Below, one piece after another: positions 11,733 to 60,958 of a DNA stretch of 64,000 bases. The notes under the pieces were generated by a model. It searched no databases. It had not been told where the DNA came from and worked only from the letters and a program-made list of their open reading frames with translations. The DNA lies in the NCBI RefSeq assembly GCF_035989265.1, contig NZ_JAYKZX010000003.1, positions 496,001 to 560,000 of the forward strand. The letters are read 5' to 3'. Source of the DNA: Sphingobium sp. HWE2-09 (GTDB taxonomy: Bacteria; Pseudomonadota; Alphaproteobacteria; Sphingomonadales; Sphingomonadaceae). The position numbers and the translations under genes are program-made. Every line of letters begins with the position of its first letter. Positions within the stretch are counted from its first letter, which is position 1.

Positions 11733-11922
11733 ATGTGTGGGGTGCGGCCGGACATGTAAGAGCGTGGCGGCAGATCATCGTCCCGATCGCCGCAGCGTTC
11801 AAGCGATCCGACCAGGCTTTCACACATCGCAGGAAGTCCTGCTTGGCATGGGACGGCCACGGCCGGCATTCGACTTGGTGGGTGTGCCACGCTTTATCGG
11901 CATGAGGACAAGGACAAATTTA

Positions 11923-12987
11923 ATGATGGTGAGACGTTTTCTAGCCGCGCTGGCGATAGCCGCGTTGCTGCCCTTCGCACTGTCAGCGCAAAGCTTCACG
12001 CGCGGCGATCCGGTGCCCGCGACGCTGCCTCTCGGCAACAAGGCGGGGAACCCTATTCAGGACATGCCGCCGGGCCAGCGATTGATCTCCGCCTTTGGCG
12101 AACGCCCCGTCTTTTCTCCCAAAGGTGACAAACTGGCCTTCATCGGCAAATCCTATGGCGATGCCTTCGAATATGACATGACGACGGGTCGGGTCCGCAA
12201 CCTGACCGACCATGCGCCCAGCGAGGGTTGGTTGCGCGTCCATTATATGGGCGATGGCAGCTACGCTCTGCTCGGCCCTCGCATTCCTGCCAAGACGCGG
12301 GAGGAAACCCGGTTCGGCCGTATCCAGCTTTTCTGGATGGATGGGCAGGCGGGGCGTTCGCCGGTGCCGCTCGGCATCACGGTGTTCGAGGGTGTCGCGA
12401 CCAGTCCGCGCAGCAACATGATTGCGTGGAGCCAGATGACGATGGCCACGGGCGGCAAGCCTGCCTCCACCACCGTCTATACCGGCCGCATCGTGCCACA
12501 CGGCGGATCGGCGACGCTGGAAGATGTCCGCGAAATCGTCACCACCACCGAATGCTTTGTCGAGGCGCAGGATTTCCTGCCCGGCGACAAGGGCTTGCTG
12601 ATGCCCTGCTATTATTATGGCCAGGGAACCGGGGCGCAGACGAAAGTCGTCTCCGTCGATTTCGCGACGCGCAAGATCACAGACTATCCCACACCCACCA
12701 GTCTCTATGGCGAAGTCGAAGGGATATTTCCCGATGGAAAGCGCACGTTGGTCGAGTGTGCGCAGGACCGGTCCAAGGGCATGGACATCTGCGTCCTCGA
12801 CCTGGATCCCGCCCGCCCGCGCTACACCCGCATGACCAACATCGTGCAATATGGTGGCTGGAAATATGGCAATCCCGTCGTGCGGCCCGACGGCCGGATG
12901 ATCGCGGCGCAGGTCGGCTCGGCGGACGTGATCGACGCCGGCGTGGGCCAGGGCATCGTGCTGATGGACCTGGCGCCCGGCTTTTAA
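11923..12987 (+). CDS. exported TolB-like beta-propeller protein
   Basis: The ATG at 11923 gives a signal peptide MMVRRFLAALAIAALLPFALSA and a mature protein of about 330 residues. The repeats PVFSPKGDKLAFIGK, GVATSPRSNMIAWSQM, EVEGIFPDGKRTLVE and NPVVRPDGRMIAAQV are WD40/PD40-like blades of TolB type. Four cysteines in the second half may form disulfides. A propeller of this kind usually binds a partner protein or a ligand rather than acting as an enzyme. The stop lies within about 5 bases of the truncated convergent GH78 remnant, so the 3' end is next to a deletion junction and may itself be altered. The upstream SDR is 190 bases away, so co-transcription is uncertain. Confidence 0.75.
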   Translation: MMVRRFLAALAIAALLPFALSAQSFTRGDPVPATLPLGNKAGNPIQDMPPGQRLISAFGERPVFSPKGDKLAFIGKSYGDAFEYDMTTGRVRNLTDHAPSEGWLRVHYMGDGSYALLGPRIPAKTREETRFGRIQLFWMDGQAGRSPVPLGITVFEGVATSPRSNMIAWSQMTMATGGKPASTTVYTGRIVPHGGSATLEDVREIVTTTECFVEAQDFLPGDKGLLMPCYYYGQGTGAQTKVVSVDFATRKITDYPTPTSLYGEVEGIFPDGKRTLVECAQDRSKGMDICVLDLDPARPRYTRMTNIVQYGGWKYGNPVVRPDGRMIAAQVGSADVIDAGVGQGIVLMDLAPGF

Positions 12988-44779: not shown

Positions 44780-45772
44780 ATGGATCACAGCCCCGTCATT
44801 ACCATCGACGACATTATCGATGCCGCCCGCAGGATAGCCCCTGCCGCGGTGCGCACGCCGTTATTGGAAAATGCCGCGCTGAACGATCGGTGCGGCCGCC
44901 GCGTTTTGCTCAAATTCGAAGGGGCGCAGCATACCGGATCGTTCAAATTCCGCGGCGCTTATAACCGCCTAGTCCAACTCGATGCGCGAGAGCGCGCGGC
45001 AGGCGTCGTCGCCTGGTCGTCCGGTAATCATGCCCAGGGTGTGGCGGCGGCGGCGAAACGGCTGGGCATCGCCGCGACGATCGTGATGCCGACCGATGCT
45101 CCCGCCATTAAGATCGCCAATACGCGTGCGCTGGGTGCAGAGATCGTCACTTACGATCGCTACACCCAAAGCCGTGAGCAGATCGCGATCACGCTGTCGC
45201 AGGAGCGGGGCGCTACGCTGGTGCCGTCCTTCGATGACCCCTGGGTCATTGCGGGGCAGGGGACGGTGGGCCTCGAAATCCTGGAGCAGGCAGCGGAGGC
45301 GGGCGCGGACGTCGGACAAATTCTCATCTGTTGCGGCGGCGGCGGATTGACCGCGGGCATCGCGACGGCGGTGAAGGCGCGCGCGCCCGATGTCGCCCTC
45401 TATGCCGTCGAACCAGCGGGCTTCGACGACACGGCGCGCTCCCTCGCCAGCGGCGTGCGCGAAGATATATCCCCCGACGCGCGCAGCATCTGCGACGCAT
45501 TGATGGCGCCCAGTCCAGGCGCGATGACCTTCCCGATCAATCAGTCGCTTCTGTCCGGCGGCCTGATCGTCACCGACGATCAGGTGCGCGATGCGATGCG
45601 CTTCGCTTTCTCGACGCTCAAGCTGGTGGTGGAGCCCGGCGGGGCGGTGGCGCTGGCGGCGATGCTCAGCGGCCTTGCGCCGCCGTGCGAGGGCGCCAGC
45701 GTCGTCATCCTGTCGGGCAGCAATGTCGATCCGGCCCTCTATGCCGCGATCATCGGCGAGCGCACGGCATGA
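44780..45772 (+). CDS. PLP-dependent threonine/serine dehydratase-like enzyme
   Basis: A 330-residue fold-type II PLP enzyme. Lys56 in SFKFRGA forms the internal aldimine, WSSGNHAQG follows as the phosphate/substrate loop, GGGGLTAG near residue 190 binds phosphate, and ILSGSNVD is near the end. This length lacks the ACT-like regulatory domain of biosynthetic IlvA, so it is of the catabolic TdcB, serine racemase or hydroxyaspartate dehydratase type. It eliminates water (or ammonia) from a beta-hydroxy amino acid. Its stop overlaps the LysR start (ATGA at 45769), so both share a message at the head of the aromatic/glycoside block. Its place in that pathway is not clear. Confidence 0.9.
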   Translation: MDHSPVITIDDIIDAARRIAPAAVRTPLLENAALNDRCGRRVLLKFEGAQHTGSFKFRGAYNRLVQLDARERAAGVVAWSSGNHAQGVAAAAKRLGIAATIVMPTDAPAIKIANTRALGAEIVTYDRYTQSREQIAITLSQERGATLVPSFDDPWVIAGQGTVGLEILEQAAEAGADVGQILICCGGGGLTAGIATAVKARAPDVALYAVEPAGFDDTARSLASGVREDISPDARSICDALMAPSPGAMTFPINQSLLSGGLIVTDDQVRDAMRFAFSTLKLVVEPGGAVALAAMLSGLAPPCEGASVVILSGSNVDPALYAAIIGERTA

Positions 45773-46665
45773 TCGATCCGCGCGCGCTTCGCACCTTCCT
45801 CGCCGTCTGTCGCGCTAACAGCATCAGCGGCGGCGCGCGGGCGCTCAACATTTCCCAACCGTCCGTATCCAACGCCATCGCGCTGCTCGAACAGTCGCTG
45901 GGCGTGTCGCTGTTCGAACGCTCGCGCAGCGGCATCCTGCTGACGCCGGAGGGGCAGGTGCTGCTACGCCGCGCCGAAGCGATGGACAGCCTGCTGGCGG
46001 ATGTGCAGACGGAGGTGCAACTGGCCAGCCGCGGCATCACCGGCCCCTTGCGGATCGGCGGCACGCCCGGAGCGCTGGTCAGCCTGCTGCCCGATGCGGT
46101 GCGGCGGCTGGAAGCCAAGATCGGCCGTTTCGCGCTGCACGTTGTCGAACGGCCGGATCATGACCTGGCGGCGATGCTCCATCGTGGCGATATCGAACTC
46201 GCCTTCGTCACCACCGGCATCGAGGAACCCCCCAAAGGCATAGAAGAGCGCACTTTTTCGCGCGATCCCTTCGCCTTGATCGTCGGCAAGCAAAATGAGC
46301 ATCTGCCCGCCAGCTTGCCGCTGCGCGATGCGGTCGCCATGCGCTGGGTTCTGCCCGAAGCGCGCGGCGCCTTTCGTCGGCAGATTGACGCGCTGTTCAT
46401 GGCGGCGGACATCACCGTGCCGCAGGACGTCATCCGCTGCGATTCCCTGCTGACGACCAAGGCGATCGTGCGGGGCAGCGGGCGCGTCACTATCTTGCCG
46501 ATGCAGGTTGCATCAGCCGAACTGTCGATCGGCGTCTTGCGCGCGATTACGATCCAGGAAGCCGCCTTTCCTCGCAGCATCGGCGTGCGGATGCTGGCGA
46601 ACGGGCGGCTGTCGCGGCTGGGTGAGGCGCTGGTCGATGTGCTTATCCATAGTTCCAGACTATGA
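45769..46665 (+). CDS. LysR-family regulator of the aromatic/glycoside cluster
   Basis: A 298-residue LTTR. The helix-turn-helix region is LRTFLAVCRANSISGGARALN, ISQPSVSNAIALLEQSLGVSLFER, LLTPEGQVLLRRAE. The effector domain runs from LRIGGTPGALVSLLPDAV to LGEALVDVLI. Unusually for an LTTR, it is co-directional and overlaps the stop of the dehydratase, with the amidohydrolase 81 bases after it. It is inside the predicted operon, not divergent from it. It probably senses a catabolic intermediate and activates the genes downstream, which is inference from position. Confidence 0.93.
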   Translation: MIDPRALRTFLAVCRANSISGGARALNISQPSVSNAIALLEQSLGVSLFERSRSGILLTPEGQVLLRRAEAMDSLLADVQTEVQLASRGITGPLRIGGTPGALVSLLPDAVRRLEAKIGRFALHVVERPDHDLAAMLHRGDIELAFVTTGIEEPPKGIEERTFSRDPFALIVGKQNEHLPASLPLRDAVAMRWVLPEARGAFRRQIDALFMAADITVPQDVIRCDSLLTTKAIVRGSGRVTILPMQVASAELSIGVLRAITIQEAAFPRSIGVRMLANGRLSRLGEALVDVLIHSSRL

Positions 46666-46746
46666 TGTTGGCAAAAATCATTATTTTTCTTTGATTGCGA
46701 AGCGGCGCATAAGCATGGCCGACAAGAGCTTTCAGGAGAGACCAGC

Positions 46747-47982
46747 GTGCGGCAGATCATCCGCAATATCGCCATATTCGACGGGACGGGCAGCGCCCCG
46801 CGTCCTGGCGCGGTGGTGGTGGAAGGCGATGTCATCGCCGCCGTGCTGCATGACGCCGACGCCATCGACGCGGTCGATGCCGATGCGGTGATCGATGGTC
46901 AGGGCGGCACGCTGATACCCGGCATGGTCGACTCTCACACCCATCTGACCTGGGGCAGTTCGGTCGAAAAAATCTATCATCAATTCATCCTGCCGCCCGA
47001 AGAATTGAAGGTCGCGGCCTGGCGCAATGCCCGCGTGCTGCTCGACCATGGTTTCACCAGCGTCTATTCGGCCGGCGCGCTGGGCGACCAGATCGAACCG
47101 GAACTGGCTCGCGCGATTGAAGCGGGCGAAACCCCCGGACCGCGCCTCATCCCTTCGACCCTTGAGCGCAGCCCGGAAGGGGAAGAGGGCGTGGAAACCG
47201 GCGACGTGTTCAATGGTCGCGGCCCCGATGCCATGCGCGCCTTCGTCGCCTATTGCGCGGCGGAGGGGGTGAAATCCCTGAAACTGGTCATTTCGGGTGA
47301 GGATGCGCTCAAGCCCGGATCGTCCGGCGACATCCTCTATACCGATGAAGAAATGCTGGCGGCGGGCGAGGCCGCGAAGGAAGCGGGCCTTTGGATCGCG
47401 ACCCATGCCTATTCGCCGCGCGCCGTACAGCTTGCGCTCGAAGCGGGCGCGCGCATCCTCTACCACTGCTCCTTTGCCGATGATGCGACCATCGACGCGA
47501 TGGCAGCGAAGAAGGATGACATCTTCTACGCGCCCGGCCCCGGCGTGTCCGTCGCCGCTCTGGAAGCCTCGCCGCCGCCCCATATCGATATGCGGTCGAT
47601 GAAGGCGAGCGCGGCCGAGCGGCTGGAACTGGAAGAGGCGCTGGTGCCAAAGCTCAAGGCGCGCGGCGTGCGCATCCTGCCCGGCGGTGACTATGGCTTC
47701 CCGTTCAATCCCCATGGTCGCAACGCCCGCGATCTGGAGCATTTCGTCACCTATTATGGCTTCACCCCGGCCGAGGCGCTCAGCGCCGCGACGATGCTGG
47801 GTGGGCAATTGATGGGACAGCGAATTGGACAGGTGAAGCCGGGCTATCTGGCCGACCTGCTGCTGATCGATGGCGACCCGACAAGCGATGTTCGCATCCT
47901 GCAAAATACCAATAATATCAAGATGATCATGCTGGGCGGGCGAATGCACAAATCCCCCGCAGTCCAGCCCGTGACCGCCTGA
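46747..47982 (+). CDS. metal-dependent amidohydrolase
   Basis: A 411-residue enzyme of the imidazolonepropionase/prolidase-like amidohydrolase group, beginning at GTG after GGAGAGACC. The metal motif DSHTHL (His64 and His66) closes the first beta strand; YSAGALGDQIEPELARAIEAGETPGPRL, a mid-chain Lys in VKSLKLVIS (likely carboxylated), ATHAYSPRAV, HCSFADD, and GGDYGFPFN with late metal Asp follow. It hydrolyses a cyclic amide, lactone or ester. It lies 16 bases before the FAD hydroxylase. In the cluster it might open a lactone formed after ring cleavage. That is a guess from context. Confidence 0.88.
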   Translation: MRQIIRNIAIFDGTGSAPRPGAVVVEGDVIAAVLHDADAIDAVDADAVIDGQGGTLIPGMVDSHTHLTWGSSVEKIYHQFILPPEELKVAAWRNARVLLDHGFTSVYSAGALGDQIEPELARAIEAGETPGPRLIPSTLERSPEGEEGVETGDVFNGRGPDAMRAFVAYCAAEGVKSLKLVISGEDALKPGSSGDILYTDEEMLAAGEAAKEAGLWIATHAYSPRAVQLALEAGARILYHCSFADDATIDAMAAKKDDIFYAPGPGVSVAALEASPPPHIDMRSMKASAAERLELEEALVPKLKARGVRILPGGDYGFPFNPHGRNARDLEHFVTYYGFTPAEALSAATMLGGQLMGQRIGQVKPGYLADLLLIDGDPTSDVRILQNTNNIKMIMLGGRMHKSPAVQPVTA

Positions 47983-47998
47983 CCGGAAAGACGCTACC

Positions 47999-49498
47999 AT
48001 GTTCGATGTTGCGATCATCGGCTGCGGGCCGGTAGGGGCCTTTGCGGCCAATCTTCTTGGCAAATCCGGCCTATCCGTCCTGGTGATAGAGCGCGATGCG
48101 CATCCCTATCCGCTGCCCCGCGCGGTGCATCTGGATCATGAGATGATGCGCCTGTTCCAGTCGGCGGGCGTCATCGACCGGGCCTTGCCCGACATGCGCG
48201 ATACCGAAGGGCATCTGCATGTCGGCGCCGACCATGGCGTCATCCGCTACATGGGGACGGTGGGCGGCGCACGGCCGTTCAGTTGGTCGAACGACTATTT
48301 TTTCTATCAGCCCGAACTGGAGGATCACCTCCGCGACGCGCTCAACGATTATCCGAATATAATTGTCCAACTCGGTGTCGCATTCGAAGGGCTGGAACAG
48401 GACGAAAGCGGCGTCACGCTGCGCCTGTCGGGCGGCATGGAGCAGCGCGCGCGCTACGTCATCGCCTGCGACGGGTCGCGCAGCGCCGTGCGCAAGGCAC
48501 TGGACATCCACCTGGACGATCTGGATTTCGAGGAACCCTGGCTGGTAGTCGACGCGCAAGTCGACGGCCCGGTCCGCTTCCCCGATCTGTCGGGCGTGCC
48601 GGATGTAGCCGACCTTCAGAAACTGTCAGTGATGATGTGCGATCCCCAGCGCCCGACGACGATCGTGCCGGGGCGCGGCAATCATCGCCGCTGGGAATTC
48701 ATGCTGCTGCCCGGCGAAGACGATCAGGCGATGATGGCGCCCGATGCGGTCGCGGCGCTCGTCGCGCCCTATCTCTCCGGCGTGCCGCATCGGGTGGAGC
48801 GCGCGGCGACCTATCGCTTCCACGGCCTGATCGCCGAACAGTGGCGGCAGGGCGGCGTCTTCCTGGCGGGCGACGCTGCACATCAGACGCCGCCCTTTTT
48901 CGGGCAAGGCATGTGTCACGGCCTGCGCGACGTCGCCAATCTTGCCTGGAAACTGGAGATGGTGCTCCGGGGCCACGCGCCCGACGCGCTGCTGGACAGC
49001 TATCAGCCCGAACGCGATCCTCATGTCCGTGCGGTCATCACGGCTGCGGTAAGTGCAGGGCGCTATATCTGCATGCTCGACCCCGAAGCGGCCGCACAGC
49101 GCGACGCCCAGATGCGCGAAGCCGCCAAGGGCGAGCGGCAACGCACCGCCGCCGACCTGATCCCCGCCATCGCAACGGGCATCGTCGCGACGGGTACGCC
49201 CGGCGCGGGCGAGCGTTTCATTCAGCCACGCGTCGGCGATCGATTGCTGGACGATGTGACGGGCGGCGGCTGGCGGCTCTTCGCACGCGCGGCTGTCGAT
49301 GGCGGCGATGTCACCGTCATCGACCTTACCAAACTGGACGATCAAGGCGCGATCGCGGCCTGGCTGGCCGATCGCCACGCCGACGCCGTGCTCGTCCGTC
49401 CCGACCATTATGTCTTCGGCACGGGCGAGGCCGCCGCCCTCATCGACCGCCGCGACGCCCTGATCGCGGGCGCTGCGCGTCAGGAGATTGCCGCATGA
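47999..49498 (+). CDS. FAD-dependent aromatic hydroxylase (MhpA/PheA-like)
   Basis: A 499-residue group A flavoprotein monooxygenase. FAD motif GCGPVG at 8-13, YVIACDGSRSAVRKAL (the DG motif binding both FAD and NAD(P)H), and GDAAHQTPPFFGQGMCHGLRDV with Asp292 bind FAD ribityl and pyrophosphate. The C-terminal thioredoxin-like domain is present. It resembles 3-(3-hydroxyphenyl)propionate hydroxylase and would add a hydroxyl group ortho to a phenolic OH, using NAD(P)H and oxygen, to make a catechol-like substrate for the extradiol enzyme encoded at 49920. The next gene overlaps its stop (49495-49498). It is cytoplasmic. The ring it acts on is not known. Confidence 0.93.
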   Translation: MFDVAIIGCGPVGAFAANLLGKSGLSVLVIERDAHPYPLPRAVHLDHEMMRLFQSAGVIDRALPDMRDTEGHLHVGADHGVIRYMGTVGGARPFSWSNDYFFYQPELEDHLRDALNDYPNIIVQLGVAFEGLEQDESGVTLRLSGGMEQRARYVIACDGSRSAVRKALDIHLDDLDFEEPWLVVDAQVDGPVRFPDLSGVPDVADLQKLSVMMCDPQRPTTIVPGRGNHRRWEFMLLPGEDDQAMMAPDAVAALVAPYLSGVPHRVERAATYRFHGLIAEQWRQGGVFLAGDAAHQTPPFFGQGMCHGLRDVANLAWKLEMVLRGHAPDALLDSYQPERDPHVRAVITAAVSAGRYICMLDPEAAAQRDAQMREAAKGERQRTAADLIPAIATGIVATGTPGAGERFIQPRVGDRLLDDVTGGGWRLFARAAVDGGDVTVIDLTKLDDQGAIAAWLADRHADAVLVRPDHYVFGTGEAAALIDRRDALIAGAARQEIAA

Positions 49499-49923
49499 TC
49501 CTGTCTCTGTCTCACGCCCGCACCATCATCGACGCCGCGCTGGACAAGGCCCGCGCCGTCGGCGCTCAGCCGCTGGCCGTCGTCGTGCTGGACGCTGGCG
49601 CGCACCCGGTCGCGACCGTTCGCGAAGATGGCGCCAGCCTGTTCCGGTTCGACATAGCCAAGGCCAAGGCCTCTGGCGCGCTGGGCATGGGGGCGGACAC
49701 GCGCATTCTAGCGGCACGCGCCGCGTCGAACCCGGTGTTTTTTCAAAGCGTGGCGGCCGCGACCGGTCGTCTGGCTTTGTCACCTGGCGGCGTCCTGATC
49801 CGCGATGTGGGAGGGGCGGTGATGGGCGCCGTTGGGATTAGCGGCGATACCGGTGACTGCGACGAAATCTGCGCCATGGCGGGCATCGAGGCGGCCGGCC
49901 TTTCCTGTGGAGACGCGAAATGA
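49495..49923 (+). CDS. GlcG/HbpS-family (DUF336) protein
   Basis: A 142-residue protein of the heme-degrading/GlcG group (PF03928): LSLSHARTIIDAALDKARAVG, LAVVVLDAGAHPVATVRED, LGMGADTRILAARAASNP, SPGGVLIRDVGGAVMGAVGISG, and CAMAGIEAAGL. Members often sit inside aromatic or glycolate degradation operons with unclear tasks, possibly binding a small ligand or heme. It is coupled at both ends by ATGA overlaps: with the hydroxylase stop and with the dioxygenase start at 49920. It has no signal peptide and is cytoplasmic. Confidence 0.9.
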   Translation: MILSLSHARTIIDAALDKARAVGAQPLAVVVLDAGAHPVATVREDGASLFRFDIAKAKASGALGMGADTRILAARAASNPVFFQSVAAATGRLALSPGGVLIRDVGGAVMGAVGISGDTGDCDEICAMAGIEAAGLSCGDAK

Positions 49924-50840
49924 AATTACGCAGCATCGAACTGGCGCTGCCCGGCGCGGCGGAGGCGGCCGCCTTTCTGGTCGACATCTGGGGCATGGCT
50001 TTGGCGGATGTGGTCGGCGACACCCATTATCTGCGCGGATCGGGCAGCTTCCCCTATCTGGTCGCGCTGACGGAATCGCCCGATCCCTATGTCCGTTCGA
50101 CCACCTTCGTGTGCACTGCCGACCGGCTGGAACAACTCAAGCGCAGCGTCACCGACGCGGGCCTGCCCGCCACGCCCGTCACCTCCGACGATCCGGGCGG
50201 TGGCCATGGTATCATCATCGAACTGGCCGAGGGCGAATTGCTGCGCTTTCTGGTCGATGCGGGCGAGGTCGCCCCGATCATGGGGGCCGACCTGCCGGTC
50301 AAGCTGACCCATGTCGTCTTCAACAGCGCCGACGCGGAAGCGACCGGTCATCTGGTCGAAGACGCGCTGGGCTTCCGCGTATCGGACCGGACCAAGGGCA
50401 TGGTCTTCGTGCGATGCAATGATTCGCACCATTCGACCGCTTTTGCGCGCGCGGGCTTCGCCTCCCTCAACCATATCGCTTTCGAGATGGAGGATCTGGA
50501 CGCAGTGATGCGCGGCATCGGTCGCTTGCGCGATCAGGATATGGCCCCTGCCTGGGGACCGGGTCGCCATGGTCCGGGCGCCAACGTCTTCGCCTATTTC
50601 ATCGCCCCGTTCGGTCCAGTCATCGAATTTTCGACCGCCGTCGAAAAGGTGCCCGACGACTATCAGGCGGGCAGCCCCGAAGACTGGACGTGGCCGGAAA
50701 AGCGGATCGACCAGTGGGGCATGTCCGACAAGGATTTCGGCAGCCTGCGGGCGGCCGAGGAGAAGTTTCGCCATCGCCGCGAATGGCAGCCGCAATCGCT
50801 CGCTCAGCCGATGGATGTCCTGACAGAGGAAAATCACTAA
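49920..50840 (+). CDS. VOC-type extradiol ring-cleavage dioxygenase
   Basis: A 306-residue two-module VOC protein. The second module has the complete metal triad of type I extradiol dioxygenases: His131 (LTHVVF), His185 (LNHIAFEM) and Glu236 (PVIEFST). The first module is degenerate, as in the BphC family. It should open a dihydroxylated ring next to the hydroxyl pair with Fe(II) and O2. Coupling to the hydroxylase and to the FAH-type hydrolase (start overlaps its stop at 50840) gives the classical order hydroxylation, cleavage, hydrolysis. The C-terminal tail (about 50 residues, DWTWPEKRIDQWGM) resembles that of dioxygenases of larger bicyclic phenols. Substrate unknown. Confidence 0.9.
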   Translation: MKLRSIELALPGAAEAAAFLVDIWGMALADVVGDTHYLRGSGSFPYLVALTESPDPYVRSTTFVCTADRLEQLKRSVTDAGLPATPVTSDDPGGGHGIIIELAEGELLRFLVDAGEVAPIMGADLPVKLTHVVFNSADAEATGHLVEDALGFRVSDRTKGMVFVRCNDSHHSTAFARAGFASLNHIAFEMEDLDAVMRGIGRLRDQDMAPAWGPGRHGPGANVFAYFIAPFGPVIEFSTAVEKVPDDYQAGSPEDWTWPEKRIDQWGMSDKDFGSLRAAEEKFRHRREWQPQSLAQPMDVLTEENH

Positions 50841-51670
50841 TGCGTTATGTCAGTTTCCGCCGTGCCGACGGCACCCCCAGCTTCGGTCGCCTTGATGGTG
50901 AGACGATCGTCGAACTCGCAACCGACGCCACGCCCAGCCTGAAGGCCGCATTGACTGACGGCAATTTGGCCGCCCTGGCCGATGGTGCATCCTTCGCCTC
51001 AGCAGATGTCGTGCTGCTTCCGGTCATTCCCGATCCCGCCAAGATCCTGTGCGTCGGTTTAAACTATGCCGAGCATGTCAAGGAAACCGGGCGTGAGCAG
51101 AAAGCGCATCCGGCCATCTTCGTGCGCTATGCCGACAGTCTGGTCGCCGACGGCCAGCCGATGGTGAAGCCAGTCGTGACGGAACGCTTCGATTATGAAG
51201 GCGAACTGGCCGTCATCATCGGCAAGCCTGCGCACAAGGTTGCCGCCGCCGATGCATGGAGCCATGTCGCTGGCTATGCCGCCTTCAACGACGGCAGCGC
51301 GCGGGACTGGCAGCGCCACAATATTCAGTTTACGCCCGGTAAAACCTTTCCCGGCACCGGCGGCTTCGGCCCCGCGCTGGTAACGCCAGACGAGATTGCC
51401 GACCTTGGGGCGCTGCGCGTCCAGACTCGCCTGAACGGCGCGGTAGTGCAGGACCAGCCGGTCGGCGACATGATCTGGGATATCCCGACCGTGATCGAAT
51501 ATATCAGCGCCTTCACGCCGCTCGCACCGGGCGATGTGATCGCGACCGGTACGCCAGGTGGCGTCGGCGACAAGCGTAGTCCGCCACTCTACATGCACGC
51601 GGGCGACAAGGTCGAAGTCGACATCGGCATCATCGGCACGCTCACTAACCGCATCATCGACGAACAATAA
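50840..51670 (+). CDS. fumarylacetoacetate-hydrolase-family enzyme
   Basis: A 276-residue FAH-fold enzyme of the short HpcE/FahD type. ILCVGLNYAEHVKETG, HPAIFVRYADSLV, FDYEGELAVIIGK with the metal Glu pair, GYAAFNDGSARDWQ with the catalytic region, FGPALVTPDEIADL, and GDVIATGTPGGVG are all present. It hydrolyses a C-C bond in a beta-diketone or acylpyruvate-type ring-cleavage product, or decarboxylates or isomerises it. It starts in the TAATG overlap at 50840 and is the last of the tightly coupled catabolic run before the receptor gene (38-base gap). It is cytoplasmic. Confidence 0.93.
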   Translation: MRYVSFRRADGTPSFGRLDGETIVELATDATPSLKAALTDGNLAALADGASFASADVVLLPVIPDPAKILCVGLNYAEHVKETGREQKAHPAIFVRYADSLVADGQPMVKPVVTERFDYEGELAVIIGKPAHKVAAADAWSHVAGYAAFNDGSARDWQRHNIQFTPGKTFPGTGGFGPALVTPDEIADLGALRVQTRLNGAVVQDQPVGDMIWDIPTVIEYISAFTPLAPGDVIATGTPGGVGDKRSPPLYMHAGDKVEVDIGIIGTLTNRIIDEQ

Positions 51671-51708
51671 GCCCGAACTACCCAACCATAATAAGGGGAG
51701 GAATAACC

Positions 51709-54006: not shown

Positions 54007-54014
54007 ACGGACAG

Positions 54015-54047
54015 GGGCATGGTGGGGCAGTAGGCTTCGCCATGCCC
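54015..54047 (+). terminator. possible hairpin after the receptor gene
   Basis: GGGCATGG (54015-54022) pairs with CCATGCCC (54040-54047) around a 17-base loop, 9 bases after the stop. No T-run follows. It may attenuate or stabilise the message at the junction between the receptor and esterase genes. Confidence 0.35.
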
Positions 54048-54077
54048 GTTCATGACGCGGCACAAGAAAGGGGACGA

Positions 54078-54926
54078 ATGAATCAAATCGCACAGTCGAT
54101 TGCCGCGCTCGGCACGGGACTGGGGCCAGATGTTCTTGCCCAATGCCGCGCCTTGTTCGATGCGGAGCAATCGGCCCTGGCGGCAGAGGTTCCCGTAACT
54201 CGGGCCGATGTCGCCTATGGCCCGGATGTCCGCCATCGCCTTGACCTCTACCAGCCGCAGGGCGATGGCCTCGCGCCCATCCTCGTATTCGTCCATGGCG
54301 GCGGTTTCGTGAAGGGGGACAAGGGCGGCGCGGACGCATGGCCGAACGCCAATGTGGGCCGCATGGCCGCGCAGGCCGACTTCCTGGGCGTCGTGATCAA
54401 TTATCGCCTCGCGCCCGATCATGCATGGCCTACAGGCGCGGAGGATGTCGCGTCGGTCGTTGCATGGCTCAAGGCGGAAGCGGCACGGCATGGCGGCGAT
54501 CCCGACCGGATCGTGTTGATGGGCACATCGGCGGGGGCCGTGCATGTCGCGGCCTATCTCAAGCTGGCGGGGGCAAAGGACATTCGTGCCGCCATCCTGC
54601 TCTCGGGCCTTTACGGCTACACGCCGCTCGATCAGCGCGACACGCTCTATTATGGCGACGCGGCGCTTTATCCTGACCGGATGCCGCTGGAGGCTGTCGC
54701 GTTGACCCCGCTGCCGCTATTCCTCGCCTGCGCCGAATTCGATCCGCCGCGCTTTCAGGCGGAGTTTCTCGGCCTCCTCCAGGACCGGCTTGACCGCCAC
54801 GGCACCATGCCGCGTGCGTGCATCCTGTCGGGCCACAATCATTATTCCATGGCCATGCATCTGGGCACCACCGACCGGCGACTAGCCGACGAAATCTGCA
54901 CCTTCGTGCGCGAAACGACCGCCTGA
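54078..54926 (+). CDS. alpha/beta hydrolase (HSL-like esterase/lipase)
   Basis: A 282-residue cytoplasmic-type esterase starting at the ATG at 54078, with AAAGGGGA before it. It has the HSL-group oxyanion motif HGGGF (73-77), the nucleophile elbow GTSAG with Ser151, and catalytic Asp222 (CAEFDPP) and His (GHNHYS, 253-255). There is no signal peptide. It probably removes an acyl or aryl ester from the imported compound. It lies 71 bases after the receptor and 26 bases before the GH1 gene. Close family relatives are kynurenine formamidase-like and carboxylesterase-type enzymes, so the substrate remains open. Confidence 0.88.
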   Translation: MNQIAQSIAALGTGLGPDVLAQCRALFDAEQSALAAEVPVTRADVAYGPDVRHRLDLYQPQGDGLAPILVFVHGGGFVKGDKGGADAWPNANVGRMAAQADFLGVVINYRLAPDHAWPTGAEDVASVVAWLKAEAARHGGDPDRIVLMGTSAGAVHVAAYLKLAGAKDIRAAILLSGLYGYTPLDQRDTLYYGDAALYPDRMPLEAVALTPLPLFLACAEFDPPRFQAEFLGLLQDRLDRHGTMPRACILSGHNHYSMAMHLGTTDRRLADEICTFVRETTA

Positions 54927-54952
54927 CAATCATAATAGGAGAGACGGAAACC

Positions 54953-56257
54953 ATGCTGGACCGCAGAACCCTTCTGGCCACCGGAGCTGCCGCAATGGCC
55001 GCTCCAGCCCTTGCCGCGCGCAAGAGCGCCGACCCCGCTTTTCCCAAGGGCTTCCTATGGGGTGCCGCCACCGCGCCGCACCAGATCGAAGGCAATAATA
55101 TCGCCAGTGACCTCTGGTTCCTGGAGAACCAGAAGCCCACCGTCTTCGCCCAGCCTTCCGGCGACGCCTGCAACAGTTTCGAACTATGGGAAACCGACCT
55201 CGACCTGGCAAAGACGATGGGCCTCAACGCCTATCGCTTCGGGATCGAATGGGCGCGGATCGAGCCGGAAAAGGGGCTGTTCAGCCAGGCGATGCTCGAT
55301 CATTACAAGGCGATTATCGATGGATGCCGCACGCGCGGCCTGACGCCGATCGTCACCTACAGCCATTTTACCGCGCCGTGCTGGTTCAGCGCGCAGGGGG
55401 GCTGGACGAACCCGGAAAGCGCCGCGCTGTTCGCCCGCTATTGCGACAAGGCGACCCGCGCCTTTGGGCAGGGGATCGATCGCGTCATCACCTTCAACGA
55501 ACCCAACATCCTGCTGTTGCTCAAGCCCATGCTGCCGCAGCAGGTGTGGGATATCCAGAAACTGACGCTGGACACCGCCGCCAAGCGGCTGGGCGTCCCC
55601 AAATTCGTCAGCGCCAATGTCGCGGGTTTCGATGATTTGCCTGCGCTGCAAAAAGGGCTGCTTACCGCACACAAAGCTGGCAAGGCCGCGATCAAGGCCG
55701 TGCGGCCTGACCTTCCGGTCGGCATCTCTCTGGCAATGCTGGACGACCAGGCTGTCGGCAGGGCGTCGATCCGCGATCGGATGCGCGGCGAGCTTTATGG
55801 TGAATGGCTCACTGTAGCGAAGGGCGACGACTTCATCGGCGTGCAGAATTATGAGCGCGCATTGTGGGGCGGCAAGGGCCGTCTGCCCGCGCCAAAGGGG
55901 TCGCCGGTCAATTGGTCCGGCACGGAAGTCTGGGCACCTTCGCTCGGTGGCGCCGTCCGTTATGCCCATGAAGCGACTGGCGTGCCGATCCTGGTGTCCG
56001 AACATGGCGTCGGCACGGAAGACGACGCTGTTCGTGCAAAATTCATTCCCGAAGCCTTGGCTGGTCTGAAAGACGCGATTGACGATGGCGTGCCGGTGCT
56101 GGGCTATTGCCATTGGTCGCTGCTCGACAATTTCGAGTGGATATTCGGCTATAAACCCAAATTCGGGCTGCACAGTGTCGATCCGATTAGCTTCGCGCGC
56201 ACGGCTAAGCCTAGCGCCGCCGTCTATGGTGCCATCGCGCGCCGCAACGCCTTGTAA
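54953..56257 (+). CDS. GH1 beta-glucosidase, exported (Tat-like signal)
   Basis: A 434-residue GH1 enzyme. N-terminus DRRTLLATGAAAMAAPALAA looks like a twin-arginine signal. GFLWGAATAPHQIEG at 33-47 is the GH1 opening motif, FGIEWARIEPEKG follows, TFNEPN holds acid/base Glu183, and the nucleophile segment reads LVSEHG with Glu350, where most of the family has TENG. YCHWSLLDNFEWIFGY near the end binds the sugar. GGAGAG lies before the ATG. It removes beta-linked glucose or a related sugar in the periplasm. It is between two esterase genes and upstream of the GH106 rhamnosidase, fitting stepwise deglycosylation of a rhamnosyl-glucoside. Confidence 0.92.
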   Translation: MLDRRTLLATGAAAMAAPALAARKSADPAFPKGFLWGAATAPHQIEGNNIASDLWFLENQKPTVFAQPSGDACNSFELWETDLDLAKTMGLNAYRFGIEWARIEPEKGLFSQAMLDHYKAIIDGCRTRGLTPIVTYSHFTAPCWFSAQGGWTNPESAALFARYCDKATRAFGQGIDRVITFNEPNILLLLKPMLPQQVWDIQKLTLDTAAKRLGVPKFVSANVAGFDDLPALQKGLLTAHKAGKAAIKAVRPDLPVGISLAMLDDQAVGRASIRDRMRGELYGEWLTVAKGDDFIGVQNYERALWGGKGRLPAPKGSPVNWSGTEVWAPSLGGAVRYAHEATGVPILVSEHGVGTEDDAVRAKFIPEALAGLKDAIDDGVPVLGYCHWSLLDNFEWIFGYKPKFGLHSVDPISFARTAKPSAAVYGAIARRNAL

Positions 56258-56269
56258 GGAGTAGGAGCC

Positions 56270-57178
56270 ATGAAACGCTTCGCCATCGCCGCCGCGCTGT
56301 TGTTCGCCGCGCCTGTCGCCGCGCAGATGCCCATCCCCGTGCCTGCACAAGCCCCCGCCGAACCGAATGCGATCCCGCTCTATCCGGCCATGAACGCACC
56401 CAAGGCCTCCACCGAAAACTGGGTGCGCTTCGGGCAGGATCTGGCGGTGCGCAACGTCACGGTGCCGACTTTGACCCCCGTCCTGCCCGATCCCGCCAAG
56501 GAGACCGGCGCGGCCGTGATCGTTGCGCCCGGCGGTGCGTTCATGCTGCTTTCGATGGAGCATGAGGGCTGGAGCGTGGCGCGATGGCTTGCTGATCATG
56601 GCGTGGCCGCATTCGTGCTCAAATATCGGCTGAACCAGACGCCGCCCGACACGGCCCAGGCCGCCGCCTATATGGGTAAGCGCATGGCGGAGTCGCTGCG
56701 CGATCCGACCGCCGCGCCCGGCATCACCGAACCGCGCGCCACGCTCGACGCCCTAGCCGCGCTCAAGCTGGTGCGCGGCAAGGCCGGGTCATGGGGCATC
56801 GATGCGCGACGGGTCGGCATGATCGGCTTTTCCGCAGGGGCGATGACCACGCTGAACGCTGCTTTGGAAGGGCAGGGGAGCGATCGCCCGGCCTTCATCG
56901 GCTATGTCTATGGTCCGATGCTGGCGCGGGATGTACCCGCCGACGCGCCGCCCATGTTCGCCGCCATCGCCAATGACGACAGCCTGTTTCCCAATCCATC
57001 CTATGGCTTGGTCGAAGCGTGGCGTAGGGCGCACGTGCCGGTCGAACTTCATGCCTATGAACGGGGCAACCATGGGTTTGGCATGGGTAAGCCCGGCACG
57101 ACGACCATGGGCGTGATGCCGCAATTCCTTTCGTGGATGGCAATGCGCGGTTTGCTCGGCAAGTCCCCGGACCAATGA
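56270..57178 (+). CDS. exported alpha/beta hydrolase (acetyl-xylan-esterase-like)
   Basis: A 302-residue exported esterase: signal peptide MKRFAIAAALLFAAPVAAQ, then the BD-FAE/acetyl-xylan-esterase-like fold with APGGAF as oxyanion region (86-91), GFSAG with nucleophile Ser188, Asp237 (NDDSLFP) and His268 (ERGNHGFGMG). Such enzymes deacetylate sugars or cleave aromatic acyl esters from glycosides. It starts 12 bases after the GH1 stop, and its own stop overlaps the start of the next gene (57175), so it is part of the same message. A periplasmic acyl-removing step before or after glycosidase action is likely. Confidence 0.9.
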   Translation: MKRFAIAAALLFAAPVAAQMPIPVPAQAPAEPNAIPLYPAMNAPKASTENWVRFGQDLAVRNVTVPTLTPVLPDPAKETGAAVIVAPGGAFMLLSMEHEGWSVARWLADHGVAAFVLKYRLNQTPPDTAQAAAYMGKRMAESLRDPTAAPGITEPRATLDALAALKLVRGKAGSWGIDARRVGMIGFSAGAMTTLNAALEGQGSDRPAFIGYVYGPMLARDVPADAPPMFAAIANDDSLFPNPSYGLVEAWRRAHVPVELHAYERGNHGFGMGKPGTTTMGVMPQFLSWMAMRGLLGKSPDQ

Positions 57179-57618
57179 CGCATGGAATTTCGATCGGGCG
57201 GGAAGCGGCGATCAGTGTCGTCATCAACGGCGTCCTCAGCCTTGCCTTCTTTTTGGGCGTATTTGGCACCCAATCCCGCTGGTTGTATTGGACGGGGCCT
57301 GACGAACTTGCGCTGGATTTTGTGCCGCAAAGCATGGCGGTCGCATTGATGAGTGCGCTCGTCCCGGCGCTGATCGCACGGCGGCGCTTGGGTAAGCAGC
57401 TGGCGCTGCACCCGATCCTGATCCGCGCTGCACTCTTTGCCTTAGCGGGCGCTATTTTGGGTGGCCTGCTGGCCTTCGCTATCAGCCAGGCAGGGCTTCC
57501 GCCAATCGATTGGGCCAATGCTCTGGCGATCAAGATCGCCTATGGCGGCGCGCTCGGTGCGCTGGTCGCCAGCCTGGCGCTCCGACGGTTGCTTTCGTCG
57601 GCCAAGTCGTTTGCATAA
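57175..57618 (+). CDS. small hydrophobic membrane protein of unknown family
   Basis: A 147-residue protein with about four transmembrane segments (SVVINGVLSLAFFLGVF, SMAVALMSALVPALIA, ALFALAGAILGGLLAFAI, IKIAYGGALGALVASLAL). I recognise no family. The ATG overlaps the previous stop by 4 bases and the next gene follows after 13 bases, so it belongs to the operon. An inner-membrane role alongside uptake or modification of the substrate is possible, but the sequence shows nothing more. Confidence 0.75.
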   Translation: MTHGISIGREAAISVVINGVLSLAFFLGVFGTQSRWLYWTGPDELALDFVPQSMAVALMSALVPALIARRRLGKQLALHPILIRAALFALAGAILGGLLAFAISQAGLPPIDWANALAIKIAYGGALGALVASLALRRLLSSAKSFA

Positions 57619-57631
57619 AAGGATCATGTTG

Positions 57632-60600
57632 ATGAAAGCCCGCACTGCTCGCCTTATCGCCCTGCTGGCCTGTGCGGCGATGGCGACGCCTGGCCTGGCG
57701 GACGAACTGGCCGACGGCTTTCGCAACCCGCCGCAGTCGGCGCGCCCGCGCGTGTGGTGGCACTGGATGAATGGCAATGTCACCAAGGATGGGATCGACA
57801 AGGATCTCGACTGGATGGCGCGCATGGGCATAGGCGGCGTCCAGAATTTCGACGCCAATCTGCAGACGCCCCAGATCGTGCCACAGCGGCTGACCTATAT
57901 GACCGACGGTTGGAAAGACGCCTTCCGTCACGCGGTCCGCACCGCCGATGCCAAGGGGCTGGAGTTTGCCATCGCGGCGTCGCCCGGCTGGAGCGAAACC
58001 GGCGGTCCCTGGGTCAAGCCGCAGGACGCGATGAAGAAGCTGGTGTGGAGCGAAACCGACCTGCGTGGTGGCCAGCGACTGAAAGGCGCGCTGCCTGCGC
58101 CGCCGTCCATCACCGGGCCTTTCCAAAGCGCGAAGTTCAGCGATCCGCTGGCGGGCGGCGGGGCGGCGGACGCGCTACCCAGCTTCTACGCCGATGCGCA
58201 TGTCCTTGCCTATCCGGTCAGCGGCAGCCCTTTGTCGCAACCGCGCATCACCCAAATCGACGGCAGCAGCCTTGCCGTAGCGCCGCTGCTCGACAATGAC
58301 CTGGAAACGGTGGCGCAGATTGCCAAGGGCGATGTCGGCCATCCCGGCGGACTGATCCTCGACTATGGCAGGCCCGTCACCATCCGATCGGCCAGCCTGT
58401 TCGTGCCCCATGCACGGCCGCCCTTCGGCGATCCCGCCTATCGCCCCACGCTGGAGGCAGAAACGGCGCAGGGCTGGCAGGCGGTGGGCCGCTTCGCCCT
58501 CACTGAAGCGTCCACGACGATCGGCTTCGCGCCCGTCACTGCGCGGCGTTTCCGGCTGCTGCTGTCGCCCAACGATGCGCCCAAATCCCCTGGCCTGGGC
58601 GATGGCGCGCCCGGCGCCATGATGATGGATGTCTTCGCGCAGCCGAGCAGCGCCACCTTCGGCATCGGCGACTTCCATCTGTCCGCACAAGCGAAGATCG
58701 ATCAATATGAAGCAAAGGCGGGCTTTGCCATCGTCCCCGATTATAACAGGCTTAGCGAAGGCGCATCGCCGGTTGGACAGGCCATAGATCCGGCCAACGT
58801 CGTTGACCTGACGTATCGCCTCCGCCCCGATGGTACGCTCGACTGGACCGCGCCCAAGGGCAGCGACTGGCGCATCGTGCGCATGGGCTATTCCCTGACC
58901 GGCAAGATGAACCATCCGGCCACACCCGAAGCGACCGGACTGGAGGTCGACAAATATGATGCGGCCGCCGTGCGCCGCTATCTGGAAACCTATCTTGGCC
59001 TGTATCGCGATACGGTGGGCGCGGACTGGATCGGCAAAAAGGGGATACGCGCGCTGCTGACCGATAGTATCGAGGTCGGCGCGTCCAACTGGACCCCGCG
59101 CATGGTCGAGGAATTCAGGGCGCGGCGTGGTTATGATCCGCTGCCCTATCTGCCTGCATTGACCGGCGCGGTGGTCGGATCGGCTGCGCGCAGCGATGCC
59201 TTCCTCCACGATTACCGCCTGACTCTGGCCGATCTGCTGGCCGACGCCCATTATAGCACGGTGGCGAAGGTCGCGCATGAAAACGGCCTGACCGTCTATG
59301 GCGAGGCGCTGGAAAATGGCCGCCCGGTGCTGGGTGACGATCTTTCCATGCGCGCACATACCGATGTGCCGATGGCGGCGATGTGGACCTTCAACCGGGG
59401 GGCTGCGCCGCGTCCGACCTTGATCGGCGATATGAAGGGCGCAGCCTCGGTCGCGCATATCTACGGCCAGAATATCGTTTCGGCCGAATCCATGACATCC
59501 GTCTTTGCGCCCTGGGCTTTCGCACCGTCGGACCTTAAGCGGGTGATCGATCTGGAGTTTGCGTCCGGCGTCAACCGGCCGATCGTCCATACCTCCGTCC
59601 ACCAGCCGGTGGACGATAAGCTGCCGGGGCTCAGCCTGATGATCTTCGGCCAATATTTCAACCGGCACGAAAGCTGGGCGGAGATGGCCAAGCCCTGGGT
59701 CGATTATATGGCGCGCACCGGCTATTTGCTCCAGCAGGGCCGCGATCAAGCCGATGTCGCCTATTTTTATGGCGAGGATGCGCCGATCACGTCGCTCTTC
59801 GAACATGGCGTTCCTGCTGATCTGCCGACCCGTTACGGCTATGATTTCGTCAATGCCGACATCCTGACCCATCGCATGACGGTGGATAAGGGCGAACTGG
59901 TGGCGGGTAACGCCCGTTACCGCGCGCTATATCTGGGCGGATCGAGCCGGGTGATGACGCTGGCGACTTTGCAACGCATTGCCGCGCTCGTGGACGATGG
60001 CGCGACCGTGATCGGCATGGCCCCGGAACGCGCGCCCGGACTTCAGGATGATGCCGCTGCCTTCAAGGCGTTGGCGAGCCGTTTGTGGAGCGGCACTGCG
60101 CGTACCAAGGGGCGCGTGATCGCCAGTCGCGACGCCGAAGCGGCGCTCGCCAGCGTCGGTATCGGACCGGATTTTCGTATAGGCCAAGGCGCTGCTGATG
60201 CGGACTATCGCTTCGTTCACCGCAAACTGGCGGATGGCGACCTTTATTTCGTTAACAATCGCACGGCGAAGGCCGGACGGATCGAGGCGCGATTCCGTGT
60301 TACGGGTAAGCAACCGGAAATCTGGCATGCGATCGACGGGACGGCAGCGCCGCTATCCTATCGGACCGAAGGCAGCGAAACGGTGATCCCGCTGGATGTC
60401 GGCGCGGAAGATGCCTTCTTCATCCTCTTCCGTCGGCCCGCCACAGCATCGTCCGCCACGATTGCGGTCAAGGCTGCCCGTTCAATCGCGACGCTCGACA
60501 ACCCATGGACCGTCCGTTTCCAGCCCGGCCGTGGCGCGCCCGCGCAGATCAAAATGGCAACCCTCAGCCCGCTAAACAGCAATGCCGACCAAGGCGTCCG

Positions 60601-60958
60601 CTATTTCTCCGGCACTACGGCCTATAGCACGCGCTTTGCTTTGCCGAAGGGGGCGAAGGTCGGGGCGTCGCTGTGGCTCGATCTCGGTCAGATCGGCGAC
60701 GTCGCCGAAATACGCGTCAATGGTCAGGTAGCGGGCACCAGTTGGTTCGCGCCGTACAGGATCGACATCGGCAAATTCGTGAAAGCAGGCAGCAATGCGC
60801 TGGAGGTCAAGGTCGCCAATCTGTGGGTCAATCGCCTGATCGGCGATCAGCAACCGGGCGCGCAGAAGATCACCTTCACGGCGGCCCCAACCTATAAACC
60901 TGATGCGCCGCTGCGCCCGTCCGGCCTGATCGGACCGGTGCAGCTTCTGGCCGAATGA
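57632..60958 (+). CDS. GH106 alpha-L-rhamnosidase (RhaM-like)
   Basis: A 1108-residue exported enzyme. The ATG at 57632 has AAGGA eight bases before it; 57626 is too close to that site. The signal peptide ends GLADE. The GH106 opening RPRVWWHWMNGNVTKDGIDKDL (split as PRVWWHWMNGN and TKDGIDKDLDWM) is clear, followed by GLEFAIAASPGWSETGGPWV, GADWIGKKGIRALLTDSIEVG near residues 460-485, and a C-terminal beta-sandwich with LWLDLGQIGDVAEIRVNGQ and APYRIDIGKFVKAGSN. Family members remove alpha-L-rhamnose from flavonoid glycosides, polysaccharides or related compounds. RhaM of Sphingomonas paucimobilis, the founding member, is of similar size. It is the last gene of the block, and it precedes a convergent gene by 3 bases. 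Confidence 0.93.
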   Translation: MKARTARLIALLACAAMATPGLADELADGFRNPPQSARPRVWWHWMNGNVTKDGIDKDLDWMARMGIGGVQNFDANLQTPQIVPQRLTYMTDGWKDAFRHAVRTADAKGLEFAIAASPGWSETGGPWVKPQDAMKKLVWSETDLRGGQRLKGALPAPPSITGPFQSAKFSDPLAGGGAADALPSFYADAHVLAYPVSGSPLSQPRITQIDGSSLAVAPLLDNDLETVAQIAKGDVGHPGGLILDYGRPVTIRSASLFVPHARPPFGDPAYRPTLEAETAQGWQAVGRFALTEASTTIGFAPVTARRFRLLLSPNDAPKSPGLGDGAPGAMMMDVFAQPSSATFGIGDFHLSAQAKIDQYEAKAGFAIVPDYNRLSEGASPVGQAIDPANVVDLTYRLRPDGTLDWTAPKGSDWRIVRMGYSLTGKMNHPATPEATGLEVDKYDAAAVRRYLETYLGLYRDTVGADWIGKKGIRALLTDSIEVGASNWTPRMVEEFRARRGYDPLPYLPALTGAVVGSAARSDAFLHDYRLTLADLLADAHYSTVAKVAHENGLTVYGEALENGRPVLGDDLSMRAHTDVPMAAMWTFNRGAAPRPTLIGDMKGAASVAHIYGQNIVSAESMTSVFAPWAFAPSDLKRVIDLEFASGVNRPIVHTSVHQPVDDKLPGLSLMIFGQYFNRHESWAEMAKPWVDYMARTGYLLQQGRDQADVAYFYGEDAPITSLFEHGVPADLPTRYGYDFVNADILTHRMTVDKGELVAGNARYRALYLGGSSRVMTLATLQRIAALVDDGATVIGMAPERAPGLQDDAAAFKALASRLWSGTARTKGRVIASRDAEAALASVGIGPDFRIGQGAADADYRFVHRKLADGDLYFVNNRTAKAGRIEARFRVTGKQPEIWHAIDGTAAPLSYRTEGSETVIPLDVGAEDAFFILFRRPATASSATIAVKAARSIATLDNPWTVRFQPGRGAPAQIKMATLSPLNSNADQGVRYFSGTTAYSTRFALPKGAKVGASLWLDLGQIGDVAEIRVNGQVAGTSWFAPYRIDIGKFVKAGSNALEVKVANLWVNRLIGDQQPGAQKITFTAAPTYKPDAPLRPSGLIGPVQLLAE

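Follow-up and report, generated by a model that had tools for sequence, protein, structure and literature searches.

Within a stretch of 64,000 nt from Sphingobium sp. HWE2-09 (contig C3, NZ_JAYKZX010000003.1, bases 496001-560000; genome of 4.44 Mb), referred to here as the window, positions 45769-60958 probably form an operon for the utilisation of aromatic rhamnoglucosides, with flavonoid rhamnoglucosides of the naringin or rutin kind as the predicted substrates. The coupling of sugar removal with ring cleavage in this unit is well supported, and a flavonoid rhamnoglucoside is its likely substrate. The genes of the unit encode, in order, a LysR-type regulator, an amidohydrolase, a class A flavin adenine dinucleotide (FAD) hydroxylase (FMO), an HbpS/GlcG-like protein (HbpS), an extradiol-type dioxygenase (VOC), an FAH-family hydrolase (FAH), a TonB-dependent receptor, an esterase (Est1), a GH1 beta-glucosidase, a second esterase (Est2), a small membrane protein (TM) and a GH106 alpha-L-rhamnosidase; they are preceded by a gene for a pyridoxal phosphate-dependent dehydratase (PALP).

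The original prediction had joined glycosidases and a ring-cleavage route in one locus, and this finds strong support in co-conservation, in rearranged architectures in which the linkage is kept and in an operator-like dyad shared by the two halves. The lack of co-conservation that would have refuted the prediction is not observed. Among the 91 Sphingobium genomes present in both searches (3 further members of the genus were excluded), GH106 occurs in 38 of the 39 that carry an ortholog of the dioxygenase (at least 72% identity; the ortholog of G051 was read as two pieces) and in 11 of the 52 that do not (Fisher p 1.5e-14, a value that is only indicative because the genomes share ancestry). 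This table counts GH106 anywhere in a genome, not just next to the dioxygenase, and the synteny counts are the stricter test. For these, the surroundings of the dioxygenase ortholog were compared at 39 Sphingobium loci, from 38 other genomes (G013 was counted twice). Open reading frames (ORFs) in the relatives were called by codon-position scoring, and since this misses some true genes, presence counts rest on tblastn. Gene order is retained within Sphingobium: HbpS, VOC, FAH and the receptor are kept in all 39 loci, LysR, amidohydrolase and FMO in 38 each, Est1 in 37, GH1 in 35, GH106 in 34, TM in 32 and Est2 in 31. The locus missing LysR and the one missing the amidohydrolase are cut by a contig end. 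As for the five loci without GH106, L035 and L043 end at contig borders, L058 (a plasmid of Sphingobium sp. RAC03) lies at one contig end with GH106 near the other, L070 has GH106 on a separate contig, and L071 (S. bisphenolivorans) is without it. The locus is patchy in the order, since only 6 of 296 evenly drawn genomes match the dioxygenase at E <=1e-90, HWE2-09 itself among the six.

Exchange is greatest for the TonB receptor, which reaches at least 50% identity in just 27 of the 39 loci. In the remaining 12 (L034, L041, L043, L050, L057, L062, L064, L066, L068, L069, L070 and L071) the receptor match is 24-31%, while in all of them except L071 FAH is 84-91% identical and Est1, where present, 69-83%, as if receptors were exchanged as cassettes. 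At L072, in G051, the two pieces of the dioxygenase ortholog overlap and lie in different frames.

The linkage extends well beyond the genus. A scan of 84,980 species genomes returned 190 relatives of the dioxygenase, of which the best 80, a selection biased to close relatives, were kept; these include Sphingobium, Novosphingobium, Sphingomonas, Caulobacter, Asticcacaulis, Brevundimonas, Azospirillum, Alteromonadaceae and Marinomonas. Enough flanking DNA was available for 64 of the 80, from Alpha- and Gammaproteobacteria, and the Sphingobium loci among them overlap the 39 described above. FAH matches were found in all 64, HbpS in 63, FMO in 62, the amidohydrolase in 58 and Est1 in 55. Of the glycosidase families sought (GH1, GH106 and GH3 only), GH1 is present in 51 loci, GH106 in 37, GH3 in 4 and any of the three in 55; for the 44 loci outside Sphingobium, GH1 was counted in 32, GH106 in 19 and any of the three in 36. 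The arrangement varies: the loci of Alteromonadaceae and Aestuariicella encode GH1 or GH106 on the opposite strand or away from the core, with the linkage kept, and those of Azospirillum and AAP38 run amidohydrolase-Est1-FMO-HbpS-VOC-FAH-GH1-TM-GH106. A quick GH106 tree was built from 50 sequences (29 from clusters, 21 others; the partial L111 was excluded, the root was placed at the midpoint and long branches were flagged). The cluster/other label switches at least 8 times on this tree, and the Azospirillum/AAP38 pair branches separately. These switches are read as repeated joining of GH106 to the core, though some of them are departures (L163 holds a relocated ortholog).

The presumed control region of the unit lies between LysR and the amidohydrolase. 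This gap (46666-46746) is the largest inside the block, and its vicinity is A+T-rich (30% G+C at 46664-46700 vs 63% for 46747-60958). An operator-like dyad, ATAG-N7-CTAT, at 46649-46663 overlaps the last LysR codons and is followed by an A+T-rich element seen by eye on the plus strand, AAAAATCATTATTTTT (46673-46688), a candidate promoter part. Among 62 sequences (the window and 61 loci with plus-strand LysR and amidohydrolase matches) the dyad occurs upstream of the amidohydrolase in 53, namely 25 of 26 from Sphingobium and 28 of 36 from elsewhere; 300 letter shuffles averaged 0.14 and never exceeded 2. It is present as a single copy in the window and as 76 copies in 81 loci (1.57 Mb). Fifty-three of the 76 stand 80-128 bp before the amidohydrolase and 10 stand 14-38 bp before LysR. 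Five, of which four are among those 10, are located 83-94 bp before GH1 in loci where that gene is separate (L121, L131, L132, L135 and L139); in L121 the dyad is where LysR ends, and GH1 occupies the place of the amidohydrolase. Two precede TM, at 81 bp in Novosphingobium sp. PP1Y and at 128 bp in L113. Control searches gave 1-7 copies for seven other spacings, 12 for the reversed motif and 1-18 for four other palindromes. An interrupted dyad before the target genes, conserved together with the regulator, is the pattern of a LysR-controlled operon, and binding of LysR is predicted on this basis. In the 4.44 Mb genome the dyad with the A+T-rich element occurs once. The long form CCATAG-N7-CTATG is present exactly twice, once at the operon and once inside an ORF; all three of the one-mismatch sites examined are likewise inside ORFs. 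Scans for sigma-70 promoters and terminators gave no clear excess over shuffles (3 vs 4.7 and 16 vs 13.0, respectively).

The substrate is suggested by a relative of known structure. The closest solved chain to the GH106 of the window is 6q2f (1340 bits over residues 25-1108), presumably the enzyme RHA-P. Two 100-residue pieces of 6q2f match exactly a gene cluster of Novosphingobium sp. PP1Y (NC_015583, plasmid Mpl, L154), and a search of that plasmid found the matched gene to be its only GH106. This cluster contains Est2, GH106, LysR, amidohydrolase, FMO, HbpS, VOC, FAH, receptor, TM, Est1 and GH1, and its proteins are 56-76% identical to those of the window except for the receptor (28%) and TM (44%). 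It differs in that GH106 is upstream of LysR and that TM-Est1-GH1 has a dyad of its own. The text consulted on this rhamnosidase does not connect it with ring cleavage. Extracts of PP1Y and its cloned alpha-L-rhamnosidase have been described to hydrolyse naringin, rutin and neohesperidin dihydrochalcone (PMC6710449). Because the crystallised PP1Y enzyme sits in an orthologous cluster and the PP1Y rhamnosidase is reported to hydrolyse flavonoid glycosides, the flavonoid-glycoside reading made in the original prediction gains support, though indirectly.

The layout was as originally predicted, with thirteen plus-strand genes filling 44780-60958 and separated by 4-base overlaps or short gaps. Four 4-base overlaps were identified (dehydratase/LysR, FMO/HbpS, HbpS/VOC and Est2/TM), VOC and FAH overlap by 1 base, and the remaining gaps are of 12-81 bases; gene starts were set by eye from overlaps and spacing and are inferences. 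The proposed domain families were all recovered, and the His/His/Glu triad claimed for the VOC was found in full. The start of the block at 44780 proved too generous. The dehydratase encoded there (44780-45772, PF00291, serine/threonine-type) is an optional neighbour; its best NCBIfam match is threo-3-hydroxy-L-aspartate ammonia-lyase (325 bits, under the cut-off of 452), and it is probably not part of the unit, as only 18 of the 39 Sphingobium loci have it. The unit is best taken to start at LysR or the amidohydrolase and to end with GH106, giving the predicted bounds 45769-60958.

The LysR-type regulator (45769-46665, PF00126 and PF03466), the presumed activator, has PcaQ as its best NCBIfam match (124 bits, under the cut-off of 304). 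The amidohydrolase (46747-47982, GTG start, PF01979) is the first gene of the putative ring-cleavage core, and its closest solved chains are hydrolases of the carboxypeptidase, prolidase and ochratoxinase types. The FMO (47999-49498, PF01494, FAD_binding_3) passes the broad subfamily model NF004829 (478 bits, cut-off 390) and fails four other listed hydroxyphenylpropionate-hydroxylase equivalogs of the MhpA type (336.6/546, 240/853, 207.3/966 and 201.8/1135 bits/cut-off). It is followed by HbpS (49495-49923, PF03928), which belongs to the block. The VOC (49920-50840, PF00903) has its putative metal site at H131/H185/E236, residues that are invariant across 13 aligned sequences, that of the window included, and that align with 3b59 and the homoprotocatechuate dioxygenase 1f1r, where the corresponding residues are metal ligands. 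It scores below the cut-off of all four dioxygenase equivalog models matched, and therefore its substrate is not assigned by models. FAH (50840-51670, PF01557) presumably acts on the ring-cleavage product.

The TonB-dependent outer-membrane receptor (51709-54006, PF07715 and PF00593) is the presumed glycoside importer. Est1 (54042-54926, PF07859 and PF20434) is an alpha/beta hydrolase without a signal peptide by eye, all export signals here having been judged by eye, without predictor software. GH1 (54953-56257, PF00232, 192.8 bits vs a cut-off of 22.6) carries a twin-arginine signal and is below the NCBIfam BGL equivalog cut-off (208 bits vs 478.5). Both catalytic-Glu motifs are present in 58 of 58 relatives and the twin-arginine motif in 55 of 58; the three misses may reflect start-site choice. 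Est2 (56270-57178, PF07859 and PF01738) is of the acetylesterase/DLH type with a Sec-like start. TM (57175-57618) is a small conserved multi-helix protein with no Pfam or NCBIfam family match; alignment shows it conserved across several orders, and it often adjoins GH1 or GH106. GH106 (57632-60958, alternative start 57626) also has a Sec-like start and matches PF17132 with 1036.6 bits (cut-off 29), scoring 266.5 against the cut-off of 1300 for the NCBIfam equivalog AlphaRhamBT4145. Its E619 and E481 align with the catalytic residues E593 and E461 of BT_0986. E593 has been reported as the catalytic base of BT_0986 (PMC6828813). The twin-arginine motif of GH1 and the Sec-type starts of GH106 and Est2 indicate that deglycosylation is probably periplasmic; the export signals originally predicted are thus present, and the extracellular location given for sugar removal probably is not correct. 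Upstream of the block a GH5-family glycosidase is encoded at 40125-42074 of the window, and after the block, on the opposite strand, comes a DUF3422 gene that is present in 8 of the 39 Sphingobium loci.

Genes of a non-phosphorylative L-rhamnose pathway were identified outside the block, on contig C1 at 941545-948305 (L190 4046-10806). L-rhamnose 1-dehydrogenase (466/400 bits/cut-off), L-rhamnonate dehydratase (767/393), didehydro-deoxyrhamnonate hydrolase (537/500) and RhaT (534/468) score above their cut-offs; a lactonase and a second dehydrogenase are represented by generic family matches alone (Amidohydro_2 and SDR). The C1 genes adjoin lactate-oxidation genes that score under their cut-offs. 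A RhaI gene is located near GH106 in 8 of the best 80 of the 190 relatives' loci.

From these assignments a route can be proposed. The receptor would bring the glycoside to the periplasm, where Est2 may strip any acyl groups, GH106 would take off the terminal L-rhamnose and the Tat-exported GH1 the beta-glucose; for both glycosidases the family and catalytic residues are established and the activity is predicted. The aglycone would then enter the cytoplasm, to be hydroxylated to a catechol by the FMO and cleaved by the VOC with Fe(II) and O2, and the ring-cleavage product may be degraded by FAH with Est1, the amidohydrolase and HbpS; these cytoplasmic roles are family-level assignments. LysR would control the unit through the dyad before the amidohydrolase and, in some relatives in which GH1 is in a separate transcript, through the same dyad before GH1. 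Freed rhamnose would be consumed by the pathway encoded on C1.

Several observations weigh against an operon dedicated to flavonoid rhamnoglucosides. Nine of the 64 full-context loci have none of GH1, GH106 and GH3, and the core on pNL2 of N. aromaticivorans is accompanied by no match to GH1 or GH106 within the 27 kb examined. In S. bisphenolivorans (L115) no FMO match was found at the locus, and VanA-type Rieske oxygenases (2748-3896 and 11662-12771) flank the core, which fits an exchangeable catechol-making step. The core of Marinomonas adjoins an RPE65-family oxygenase (L126 5637-7124, L128 5651-7144). The core therefore need not be flavonoid-specific and may serve several phenols. Among the 25 of 65 NCBIfam matches listed for the FMO, the sole model passed is that of a 3-hydroxyphenylpropionate/3-hydroxycinnamate hydroxylase. 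As for control, the dyad is missing from 9 of the 62 sequences, and for 10 of the 76 copies no gene of the cluster follows. Four of the five dyads before GH1 are also just before LysR, which makes LysR autoregulation an alternative, and the PP1Y dyad before TM-Est1-GH1 falls within an MBL-fold gene match. Conservation of the dyad in the window could be partly coding because it overlaps LysR codons; its right half uses the leucine codon CTA, and this codon is rare in G+C-rich genomes. The long form, at one mismatch or fewer, gives 68 matches in the genome (66 of them with one mismatch) vs 23 for the reversed control, counts that include both strands and palindromic doubles, so the dyad may have further targets there. 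Finally, neither L-rhamnose mutarotase nor L-rhamnose isomerase was found in the HWE2-09 genome.

Some of these points would suit a coupled operon with a non-flavonoid aglycone, such as the rhamnoglucoside of a stilbene, a phenylpropanoid, a lignan or a methoxylated phenol, a reading that is possible but rather unlikely. The RPE65 family includes stilbene cleavage enzymes besides those of carotenoid cleavage, and the Rieske-paired core, the model passed by the FMO and the origin of several hosts from marine or aquatic genera point the same way; against this, the rhamnosidase that PP1Y encodes in the orthologous cluster is active on rhamnoglucosides of flavonoids, though such enzymes may accept several aglycones. 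That the block is instead two independent neighbours, a deglycosylation set for glycosides such as saponins and an aromatic catabolic set, is improbable. A Sphingobium GH106 has been reported to act on steroidal saponins (PMC10653915), and in some genomes the core occurs apart from the glycosidases, but the co-conservation across orders, the repeated joining of GH106 and the equal spacing of the dyad before GH1 and before the amidohydrolase argue for a shared function. Chance neighbourhood is rejected in view of the co-occurrence counts in the genus, the linkage kept through rearrangement and the dyad. It is more improbable still that FAH and the amidohydrolase serve L-rhamnose breakdown in a rhamnoside locus to which the FMO and VOC are incidental. 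FAH does match the 2,4-didehydro-3-deoxy-L-rhamnonate hydrolase model with 150 bits, but the member scoring over the cut-off (537 bits) is encoded on C1 with the dehydratase and dehydrogenase, which rules out FAH as the hydrolase of that pathway, and FAH adjoins VOC even in loci without GH106. An operon coupling deglycosylation with ring cleavage, likely of flavonoid rhamnoglucosides, is thus preferred. The complete glycoside-to-ring-cleavage pathway of the original prediction goes too far: the identity of the aglycone, the position hydroxylated and the reactions that follow ring opening are predictions, and variants with GH3, Rieske O-demethylase-type or RPE65-family enzymes exist.

Other gene sets were seen around the core and its more distant relatives. 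The Marinomonas core (FMO-VOC-FAH) is also paired with a glutathione transferase, and its FMO was called as two overlapping ORFs in L126. On pNL2 (L155 17502-25657) and in Massilia putida (L158 17564-23221) a second set, with genes for a hisD-like dehydrogenase, an SDR, an FAH, a VOC and a flavoprotein, adjoins the core. L156-L159 are more distant FMO-FAH sets, three of the four with a VOC match and none with a match to GH1 or GH106 in the DNA read; those of Massilia and Rhizobium have an amidohydrolase from another family (PF04909), and that of Rhizobium brockwellii has GH3 and sugar ABC genes close by.

Among plant phenols, flavonoid glycosides are common, and they reach both roots and water. 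It is proposed, as a suggestion with about an even chance of being right, that the locus represents a widespread class of exchangeable loci with which Alpha- and Gammaproteobacteria utilise aromatic glycosides, a polyphenol-glycoside counterpart to polysaccharide utilisation loci. Its fixed core would consist of a LysR-controlled amidohydrolase, FMO, HbpS, VOC and FAH, its swapped modules would be GH1/GH106 or GH3, receptors and a ring-activating FMO or Rieske O-demethylase, and its route would be distinct from the fde and ifc systems considered below. Sugar removal and ring breakage, which are usually studied separately, appear here as one jointly controlled unit, and since the conserved joint locus has a predicted operator and one member already crystallised, the entire route is open to test in the laboratory strain PP1Y. 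Such a locus would also explain what the crystallised PP1Y rhamnosidase does in the cell and yield further hydroxylases and dioxygenases that could plausibly be applied to polyphenols.

In the titles and abstract openings of the literature searched, the coupling was not found described, although it may be in print, for example in the original RHA-P papers. The fde operon of Herbaspirillum seropedicae, for the degradation of naringenin, is not known to contain glycosidases. In it, an FAD hydroxylase acts ahead of a glyoxalase-type A-ring dioxygenase (PMC11069340, PMC11303751), a pairing that the block shares by description. By description it is also shared with the ifc system of Variovorax sp. 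V35, in which the FAD 8-hydroxylase IfcA and the glyoxalase IfcB act on the isoflavone A-ring (PMC11069340). The ifc system also uses the cupins IfcD1/IfcD2, its IfcA is inactive on isoflavone glycosides, and its description in the source consulted names no glycosidase (PMC11069340); unlike ifc, the thirteen proteins of the block gave no cupin domain at E 0.001. In Sphingobium RC1, SpGH106-1 and other saponin glycosidases have been described, with GH106 reported active on steroidal saponins. That system resembles the block in having a GH106 inside a glycosidase cluster in the same genus and differs in its saponin targets, ring-cleavage genes not being named in the source consulted (PMC10653915). 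The genome paper of PP1Y lists three poorly characterised extradiol enzymes, one of them tagged Mpl10251 (PMC4059872), which from the numbering we guess to be the PP1Y VOC. In these sources fde and ifc are described as starting from the free aglycone and rhamnosidases as processing enzymes. Compared with fde and ifc by description only, and placed outside the latter because the cupins that mark it were not found, the locus of HWE2-09 is therefore regarded as a variant among flavonoid/aromatic catabolic clusters, outside both fde and ifc.

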